Positions 14,996-16,936 of a DNA stretch of 42,395 bases are shown here, in pieces. The stretch's first letter is position 1. Every line of letters starts with the position of its first letter. Under the pieces are notes generated by a model. The model ran no database searches. It had not been told where the DNA came from and was given only the letters and a program-made list of their open reading frames with translations. A program made the translations under genes and the position numbers. This DNA comes from Desulfosporosinus sp. GTDB taxonomy: Bacteria > Bacillota > Desulfitobacteriia > Desulfitobacteriales > Desulfitobacteriaceae. The stretch is from the NCBI GenBank assembly GCA_020692355.1, contig JAIMKP010000026.1:1-42395 (forward strand). Direction: 5' to 3'.

Positions 14996-15008
14996 GTTCG
15001 GTTTTGGG

Positions 15009-15245
15009 GAGCTTGGGGTTGGAAATGCTCCACGGCACCACGCTCACCCATGGCGCGAGCAGACTAAACTACTCACTCGGCTCGGTTGTGGGTGGAGGGT
15101 AAATCGCCAAATTCGCCGTCCATGGCTCAGTTGGCAACCGCCGCGCATCCGGCGCGTCGTCCCTCTAATGGAAAGGGCTCGCCTCGTGGGGTTTAGTTGC
15201 TGCTCACTTTAGGGTTCGCTTAGGTGCTCGCGGAGCATTCCCTGC
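15009..15245 (+). repeat. Non-coding dispersed repeat, copy A
   Basis: A GC-rich non-coding block between lepA and hemW. Its segment 15191-15228 is the reverse complement of 16671-16708 at 35 of 38 positions, and 15119-15152 matches 16806-16838 in the same inverted sense. Weaker similarity covers 15009-15050. The block between the matching segments differs in length and sequence. No protein is supported. Confidence 0.75.
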
Positions 15246-15333
15246 TTTGAGGTTTTCTGGAAAGCTAATAATTCAGCTAGCAGATTCGACCCTCGAACAT
15301 CGAACCACGAACTACGACAAAGGGAGTATATTT

Positions 15334-16575
15334 ATGCCGGGACTTTATGTGCATGTACCGTTTTGTTTGCAGAAGTGTGCCTATTGCGCCTTTTATTCGG
15401 TTCCGTTGGCTGATGTACATGGGGTTGGTACCGTTAAGGACTACTTCGAGGGGCTCGCTGCAGAGATCCGCTTGCGGCAGCAAGATACCCCATTCGGGGT
15501 GTCTTCTCTTTTTATCGGCGGGGGTACGCCGACGGTTCTTGCGCCTGAAGGGTTGGAACGGCTGCTCAAGATGCTTGTCTCTGGGTTTTCGGGGGACGCG
15601 GGGCTTGTAAGCGGGCTAGAAGAGAACGCTATTGGGTCAGGGGGTTCTTTGGGGTGGGAAAGGCAGCGTGCCGTGCGGTTTGAGGACATCGAAGCCACCT
15701 CGGAGGCGAACCCAGGAACGATCACGCCGGAAAAGCTGAGAATCCTGCGTCAGTATGGCATCCACCGGATTTCCCTGGGGGCCCAGTCGTTTTCAGACCA
15801 ACTGCTAAGGGAGATCGGACGGATTCATAATGCGGAGGCGATCCGGGAGGCGGTGCGGCTCATCCGCTTGGGGGGCTTTAGTAATCTCAATCTGGATTTG
15901 ATGTTTGGGCTTCCAGGTCAGGACATGAAGACTTGGCAGGAAAGTATAGAAGAGGCACTCAGACTCGGGCCGGAGCATCTGTCCCTCTATGCCTTAAGCT
16001 TGGAGGCAGGGACGCCCTTGGCAAAGCGCTATCCACTGGGCCAGGGGAAGACATCCTCGCGCATGCCACACCTTCCTGACGATGATGAGCAGGCGGATAT
16101 GTATGAGTGGGCTGTTGAATGCCTGGTGCGAGCAGGCTATATCCACTATGAGGTCTCGAATTTTGCTTTGCCGGGAAAGGAATGCCGCCATAATCTGGAG
16201 ATTTGGCGGGGCAGAGATTACCTCGGCCTGGGGCCAGGTGCGGTGTCTACTCTCGGAGGCGTCCGCTGGCGGAACCTTGAAAACGTGGCCGTCTATGGCC
16301 AGTGCCTTCGGAACGGAGAACTTCCGCTCACGGAAGTGGAACATCTCAGTGAACGTGAGCGCATGACCGAGCGTTTGATGCTGGGTTTAAGGTTAAGTGA
16401 AGGAGTAAGCCTGGAGGGATTTAAACAAGAATTCGGACAGGATTTAAGGGATATTTATAAGGACGTTTTGGAAACCTATCTGCAGCAGAAACTTCTTTCT
16501 ATAGAAGAAAATCACCTGCGCCTGAATCCCCAGTACATCTTCACCGCCAACGCCATCCTGCAGGCGTTCGGATAA
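15334..16575 (+). CDS. hemW: Radical SAM heme chaperone HemW (HemN-like)
   Basis: Radical SAM protein related to coproporphyrinogen III dehydrogenase but, in this subfamily, thought to bind and transfer heme. The N-terminal motif LYVHVPFCLQKCAYCAFYS has the C11-x3-C15-x2-C18-x-F pattern of HemW for the 4Fe-4S cluster. Later landmarks are IGGGTPTVL, RISLGAQSF and LDLMFGLPGQDMKTW. The start is ATG 15334, with AAAGGGAG 8 nt upstream; the upstream in-frame extension to 15247 lies in repeat sequence. It is 413 residues, slightly longer than many homologues, with a Gly-rich insertion near residues 85-115. It is flanked by the inverted repeat copies A and B. Confidence 0.92.
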   Translation: MPGLYVHVPFCLQKCAYCAFYSVPLADVHGVGTVKDYFEGLAAEIRLRQQDTPFGVSSLFIGGGTPTVLAPEGLERLLKMLVSGFSGDAGLVSGLEENAIGSGGSLGWERQRAVRFEDIEATSEANPGTITPEKLRILRQYGIHRISLGAQSFSDQLLREIGRIHNAEAIREAVRLIRLGGFSNLNLDLMFGLPGQDMKTWQESIEEALRLGPEHLSLYALSLEAGTPLAKRYPLGQGKTSSRMPHLPDDDEQADMYEWAVECLVRAGYIHYEVSNFALPGKECRHNLEIWRGRDYLGLGPGAVSTLGGVRWRNLENVAVYGQCLRNGELPLTEVEHLSERERMTERLMLGLRLSEGVSLEGFKQEFGQDLRDIYKDVLETYLQQKLLSIEENHLRLNPQYIFTANAILQAFG

Positions 16576-16653
16576 ACTCAGAAGTCAGAGATTTGAGGCC
16601 GGAAGTCAGATGCTAACACAGGGCTTCGAAGGCTTGCTAATGCGTGCTACAGA
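16576..16653. other. Spacer after hemW
   Basis: Short degenerate direct repeats of the type GAAGTCAGA occur at 16580-16610. No terminator and no gene are seen. Confidence 0.4.
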
Positions 16654-16880
16654 GCAGGGAATGTCACACCAGCACCTAAGCGAACCCTAAAGCGAGAAGC
16701 AACCAAACTCTAGGATAGGCTCGTACTTGAAAGATGAGGGGCGCTGCGCCGGAACACGATGTTCCTAGTGTCGCAGGCGCCACGGATGGCATTAGCCTGT
16801 GACTGCCGGATGCGCAGCGTCGCCAACTGAGCCATGGAAGAGCCCGGTGCCGTGGGATATTCCCCACCCAAGACGCCTCC
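16654..16880 (-). repeat. Non-coding dispersed repeat, copy B (inverted relative to copy A)
   Basis: Contains the reverse complements of the two conserved blocks of copy A (16671-16708 and 16806-16838) in the mirrored order, plus GCAGGGAATG at 16654, the counterpart of CATTCCCTGC at 15236-15245. Between the blocks it carries a private segment with a GGAACA-CGA-TGTTCC hairpin (16751-16765) inside GC-rich arms. Not coding. Confidence 0.75.
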
Positions 16881-16936
16881 AACGAAGCCCCCATCGATCA
16901 CCATTATTTAGGAAGAAATTCATCCTTTTTTTCCCC

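Follow-up and report, generated by a model that had tools for sequence, protein, structure and literature searches.

The gene hemW of a Desulfosporosinus species lies between two diverged copies of a non-coding repeat in opposite orientation, and the question raised by this locus is what such a pair represents. The window analyzed here is the whole 42,395-nucleotide contig JAIMKP010000026.1 of assembly GCA_020692355.1, in which an initial annotation had proposed, from the letters of the sequence, that the pair might allow inversion of hemW, mark an old insertion of a mobile element, or encode a structured RNA present in many copies. A repeat search of the window confirmed the mirrored pair as four inverted matches, at 15184-15249 and 16650-16715 (66 nt, 82% identity), 15119-15138 and 16819-16838 (95%), 15139-15153 and 16805-16819 (93%), and 15003-15054 and 16831-16882 (71%). 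Copy 1 begins about 20 nt past the lepA stop codon, and its reverse-strand RNA folds at -107.3 kcal/mol (z -6.71). In copy 2 (fold z -3.56), stems P2-P5 have lost their 5' halves and the P6 loop has gained an insert of the type we call alpha, directly after ATCC, so the annotated plan of conserved blocks and variable inserts was right. The repeat is not an insertion sequence. The coordinates of all features are collected in Table 1.

Table 1. Features of the repeat pair around hemW, in positions of the window.
Feature	Position	Strand	Evidence or remark
Copy 1, intact element in R1 orientation, between lepA and hemW	15015-15247	+	R1 233.5 bits (the score of a training sequence)
P1 closing stem, 5' arm	15024-15039	+	pairs with 15223-15242; helix 1 covariation
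P1 closing stem, 3' arm	15223-15242	+	fold and covariation
Hairpin P5, RTCC loop motif (GGAY on the reverse strand)	15104-15137	+	loop reading, covariation
Hairpin P6, loop ATCCG in copy 1 (ATCGT or GTCCT in other copies)	15139-15159	+	
Sub-threshold match to Rfam RF01731 (TwoAYGGAY)	15086-15165	-	22.9 bits, cut-off 43
hemW, gene between both copies, outside the element	15322-16575	+	listed ORF 15247-16575, TTG start
Copy 2, decayed, opposite orientation, between hemW and hrcA	16652-16870	-	R1 68 bits, E 4.2e-15 for one genome; not among the R1 model sequences
Alpha-type insert of copy 2 (57 nt, two hairpins), within the P6 loop	16751-16807	-	comparison with insert-free copies

The repeat has many further copies, which lie far outside what chance would produce. 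Used as a BLAST query, positions 15009-15300 gave 27 pieces on many contigs of the same Desulfosporosinus genome (G000) and 24 in a congener from a close sister species (G001); against the other 39 genomes, short core matches only were obtained, in four. We built a covariance model, R1, from nine copies (238 positions, 67 pairs). A second model, R2, held only 19 base pairs and was left out of searching. R1 gave 32 matches in G000, corresponding to about 26 places after removal of six other-strand readings, 16 matches (14 places) in G001, and matches in at least 36 of the 45 family genomes. The exact core pattern occurred at no place in viral contigs and had no plasmid match, and a phage or plasmid origin was rejected on these grounds. 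One exact 26-base core match lies far from all other hits, in a contig (L207) of the sheep-gut Lachnospiraceae metagenome-assembled genome RGIG6221. We found nothing relevant in the literature on dispersed repeats in Desulfosporosinus or Desulfitobacterium or on multi-copy structured RNAs.

The element is a dispersed, hairpin-rich, non-coding sequence of about 240 nt. Fourteen aligned copies share one plan, consisting of a closing stem P1, in which GGGAATGCTCC..GGCACC pairs with GGTGC..GGAGCATTCCC, the stems P2-P4, and the hairpins P5 (loop RTCC) and P6 (loop RTCC or RTCG), with optional hairpin modules at a few positions. Across 61 aligned copies, 92.9% of cells were paired, falling to 35-44% in a control in which the partner was slid by 1-3 columns, and changes on both sides occurred in 55 of the 67 pairs, including 16 of 16 in helix 1 (P1); these values come from an alignment fitted to the R1 model, which therefore leans toward structure. 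Cells with both-sided changes numbered 764, compared with 192 in shuffles (0 of 500 shuffles). The arms differ wholly between subfamilies, yet still pair. The multi-branched fold is thus real, a single structure with covarying stems, and a repeat without further copies or covariation is excluded. TCC, which reads GGA on the reverse strand, was present in the P5 region of all 61 rows by a loose test that counted inserts, and the P6 loop carried TCC in 43 and TCG in 18 of the 61 family copies. Both strands of the element fold strongly.

No Rfam family was reached by the window at gathering cut-offs. When the limits were relaxed, other copies in G000 matched the full RF01731 (TwoAYGGAY) model on their reverse strand, with at best 37.6 bits; G000 holds nine such sub-threshold matches, and model positions 1-168 were matched on the reverse strand of locus L018. 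The cut-off was exceeded in three relatives (L094, L090 and L097, with 45.1, 43.9 and 48.6 bits), and the matches were always antisense to R1. Matches at E 0.001 or better occurred in at least 50 of 398 phylum genomes, at least 33 of them above the cut-off, usually with several copies each. In several members that we folded, near-perfect outer arms reach 30-45 nt past the Rfam model, and the GGA of each loop showed little or no variation among 25 RF01731 members from other families. RF01731 and Escherichia coli CsrB belong to a common Rfam clan, CL00106. PMC4333381 proposes TwoAYGGAY as a CsrA-binding sRNA or sponge outside Gammaproteobacteria, and PMC2864571 lists it as probably RNA and not cis-regulatory. 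Judged from sequence, the element is a relative of this Rfam family, which is listed as an RNA without an assigned function: its reverse strand likewise carries two adjacent hairpins inside a long closing stem, with GGA in the P5 region and in most P6 loops. It differs in that the window and the other copies of G000 stay below the cut-off, in that a genome holds tens of copies, with modular inserts and composite inverted pairs, and in that its P6 loop is often without GGA. A separate Rfam match, to a pyrrolysine insertion sequence (RF01982, 79.3 bits), lies at L077:393-492 in relative G022.

Folds kept as RNA tolerate G-U pairs far better than A-C mismatches, which allows the level of conservation to be asked of the mismatches themselves. 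In alignment A4 (59 of 80 rows and 54 well-formed pairs, with 21 other-strand readings, duplicates or truncated rows dropped), the element had 60 G-U, 54 A-C and 63 other mismatches among 3074 cells, while a control of 25 SAM riboswitches from the same family gave 67 G-U to 0 A-C. We then passed the element and RNase P through the same MAFFT/alifold pipeline, which for the element, as for the strand-symmetric counts, used 48 of 61 rows after dropping those of more than 260 bases and two truncated ones. RNase P gave a G-U to A-C ratio of 383:29 on its true strand (41:14 when counted as pair columns with any) and 189:78 (19:23) on the reverse strand. The R1 strand of the element gave 28:46 (columns 17:23) in its own genus and 51:24 (13:11) in other genera, and the RF01731 strand 43:22 (21:16) and 32:24 (11:11), respectively; RF01731 members of other families, read on their own strand, gave 9:5 columns. 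A stricter strand-symmetric count agreed with this, at 14:17 for all element copies and 19:8 for RNase P. A per-sequence symmetric mismatch test (element 27:45) was not used because its RNase P control failed (31:38), and loop-anchored hairpins, counted without a control after duplicates and stems of fewer than four pairs were dropped, totaled 12 G-U and 12 A-C, a result uninformative alone. Neither strand of the element behaves like the RNase P and SAM controls, although the RF01731 strand tilts weakly toward G-U. The missing G-U excess on both strands suggests that the fold may be held at the level of DNA. PMC8794818 describes template switching as yielding compensatory changes without selection on RNA.

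Comparison of closely related genomes shows turnover of the copies. G000 and G001 agree at 568 of the last 600 bases of lepA, and both carry an element at the same spot between lepA and hemW whose central ~70 nt are nearly the same, although its arms are of type A in G000 and of type C in G001. Between hemW and hrcA, copy 2 has no counterpart in G001, where different sequence takes its place. At ftsW-murG, G001 is missing 575 bases that in G000 comprise an element, its tail and an assembly gap; because ACGA stands on both sides of the difference, insertion and deletion are indistinguishable here. A second element on the ftsW-murG contig retains only its first ~75 nt in G001, which is a deletion.

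Smaller units enter the element itself. Two orthologous stretches of ~800 nt from sister species (L049 and L043) are nearly identical except that one carries a 53-nt hairpin inserted precisely into the P5 loop. Inserts of this type, gamma, occurred in seven different contexts, each of them within an element, in a sample of loci biased to elements; the insert ends in CC, like its target. The alpha/delta module occurs in either orientation in P5 or P6 loops, right after TCC. We found no description of loop-targeted hairpin insertions in the literature for the TwoAYGGAY family. Whole elements also combine: the complete genome G007 has seven inverted pairs 50-400 bases apart in 2.38-3.18 Mb (one split over two stretches), five of which are one composite of ~560-600 nt at unrelated sites, made of a sense copy, a spacer and an antisense copy of another subfamily. 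The four other composites are 92, 90 (part), 89 and 83% identical to that at L368a. At all five sites the edges are sharp, with terminal inverted ends TCTGGGG...CCCCAGA and flanks that are not shared, and no target duplication was seen; elsewhere, the closing stem itself forms the inverted ends.

No complete excision product was found among the sites compared, nor did a search that covered the Y1 transposase find a mobilizing enzyme. The Y1 transposase (PF01797) is absent from G007, which has at least 26 element matches, and occurs nine times in G003 and seven times in G011, where no element was found among the matches listed; since its presence does not follow the element, an IS200/RAYT-type Y1 transposase was rejected as the mobilizer. 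Other repeats were seen as well. A second palindromic family, GGGGTAAG..CCTTAGGG..GGTCTGACCCC, stands beside the element or replaces it at L049, L043, L060 and the hemW-hrcA site of G001 (L188). Near-tandem tails of short units (CGAACATCGAACCACGAAC or CTTCTGACTTCTGAC) come after many copies in the genus, including at 15300-15320 of the window, often behind a CCTTCGAAG hairpin. A further repeat of ~120 bases, which contains a CTCCCACTTGTAGAAGTGGGAG hairpin and lies at L189:4940-5060, is matched many times in G001 and resembles the ends of IS605-type elements.

We read the 53-nt loop insertion, the presence or absence between ftsW and murG, and the five-site composite of G007 as evidence that the element is mobile. 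The explanation we favor, to which we give about an even chance of being right, is that both copies around hemW belong to a dispersed foldback repeat of Bacillota, non-coding and modular, whose reverse strand is the counterpart of TwoAYGGAY and which is mobile as DNA. Such a repeat would move or be copied as DNA, its hairpins would form on single-stranded DNA during replication, and its arms would stay complementary at the DNA level rather than as a transcript, whether through template switching, through conversion of one arm by the other, or because recognition by some enzyme is selected for. Smaller hairpin modules are found directly behind TCC in its loops. A DNA-level cause of the conserved fold is, we infer, the best fit to the mismatch counts. 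A wider form of this explanation, which we hold tentatively and at somewhat less than even chance, is that TwoAYGGAY, with its relatives, would be self-structured mobile DNA of the whole phylum instead of regulatory RNA, a set of multi-hairpin foldbacks in which GGAY/RTCC loops take hairpin modules and covariation would arise from DNA-level repair or selection for single-stranded DNA hairpins. The evidence supports, but does not prove, that the family is mobile DNA and not RNA. Counting against it are the weak G-U tilt of the RF01731 strand, also expected of a real RNA, and the more stable folding of that strand in 24 of 26 members from other families, a comparison uncontrolled for composition. 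The loops are conserved over the phylum and thus point to selection for recognition, possibly of RNA. Against mobility stand the transposase, target duplication and complete excision product that were looked for and not found, and the ftsW-murG difference could be a deletion.

The main rival, which we consider unlikely, is that the reverse strand would encode a CsrA-binding RNA, acting as a sponge or a cis site, in which the two hairpin-loop GGAs would be presented to the CsrA dimer. The clan shared with CsrB and the near invariance of GGA in both loops of RF01731 members, which favors loop recognition, both speak for it. So does the distribution of csrA, found in 35 of the 45 family genomes (some of the drafts being incomplete): in at least 7 of these 35, an element lies within ~1.3 kb of csrA, and the gene order at the loci checked is a flagellin-type gene, the element, then DUF6470 and/or fliW by Pfam. 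Set against this, the TCG found in the P6 loop of some family copies (18 of 61) removes the GGA, in 51 of 60 copies the strand with GGA runs antisense to the gene upstream, and G-U is as scarce as A-C on the GGA strand in other genera. Two genomes with copies, G048 (98% complete) and G058 (94%), had no csrA match. The element next to csrA is, moreover, one among several loci that species have retained, another being that behind methylaspartate mutase E. In a Pfam scan of chosen loci, taking one protein per side (52 upstream and 46 downstream in the family, 50 in other families), methylaspartate mutase E accounted for 6 of the 52 upstream proteins and flagellin-type proteins for 5. The recurrence of these neighbors and of the csrA region indicates that some insertions are old and inherited. 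The multi-copy structured RNA of the initial annotation stands as to structure, copy number, strong covariation and kinship of the reverse strand with TwoAYGGAY; action as an RNA would be a further step, against which the scarcity of G-U pairs weighs somewhat.

The placement of copies relative to genes bears on a further possibility, that the R1 strand serves as a 3'-UTR element that, as REP sequences may do, protects the mRNA end or acts in attenuation or termination. Of 64 rows kept from the 80 of alignment A4, 51 copies lie behind a co-oriented gene, 9 behind an opposed one, and 4 have no gene in reach, so that co-orientation holds in 51 of 60 (binomial p 3e-8). Among the 51 co-oriented copies, 32 begin at a distance between -20 and 35 nt relative to the stop codon. 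This bias fits a 3'-UTR RNA and thereby also counts against the DNA explanation, and the strong folding of both strands would suit such a role. No T-run follows the fold in the copies inspected, however, and an intrinsic terminator was rejected for this reason; A-C mismatches on the R1 strand are at least as frequent as G-U in the genus itself, and in other families the upstream gene is co-oriented in only 16 of 26 members. We therefore regard a 3'-UTR role as improbable. Of 15 lepA sites inspected in sister or other genomes, 12 are free of an element behind that gene; G001 carries one copy there and G007 an inverted pair, and the match in L108 is not at lepA. On the G007 chromosome (G007:C1), 2 copies fall within 0-0.8 Mb, compared with 20 within 2.38-3.18 Mb (binomial p 1.2e-4), a crowding on one ori-proximal chromosome arm, with GC skew and gene strand opposite between the two stretches. 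Similar clustering appears, among the best matches listed, on G014:C3, G041:C11, G024:C35 and G006:C6.

A recombination switch that inverts hemW, suggested by the 66-nt inverted arms (82%) on both sides of the gene, is very improbable, since the arms are imperfect, copy 2 is decayed, and lepA, hemW and hrcA are collinear in G001, which has one copy only. Returning to mobile DNA as the preferred explanation, the annotated old insertion of a mobile element stands in its general form, the copies being dispersed, nested, present or absent between relatives, and themselves carriers of smaller insertions; a unit bracketing hemW does not, because G001 has the lepA-side copy alone. The two copies in the window are most likely passengers, one behind lepA and one in front of hrcA.

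Each of several known systems resembles the element in part. CsrB/RsmB sRNAs also carry GGA in hairpin loops and share the Rfam clan, but each is a single gene with many short hairpins, whereas the element is dispersed and, in family copies, mostly antisense to genes. REP/BIME and RAYT systems have palindromic repeats that, like the element, closely follow stop codons and often form inverted pairs; the element differs in being 230-300 nt long and multi-branched and in having no link to a Y1 transposase. MITEs and foldback repeats such as bcr, ERIC and Correia are non-coding and dispersed, with terminal inverted ends and secondary insertions. The element shares these features and differs in that no partner transposase or target duplication was found and in that its long-range structure and loops are conserved across the phylum.

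If the family is RNA, tens of dispersed copies would adjoin housekeeping operons and, in several species, stand in front of fliW-csrA, a placement that would make the question of CsrA directly testable. If it is mobile DNA, the CsrA-sponge proposal of PMC4333381 would fall, and covariation alone would be no proof of RNA function; the count of G-U against A-C would offer a simple extra test beside it.
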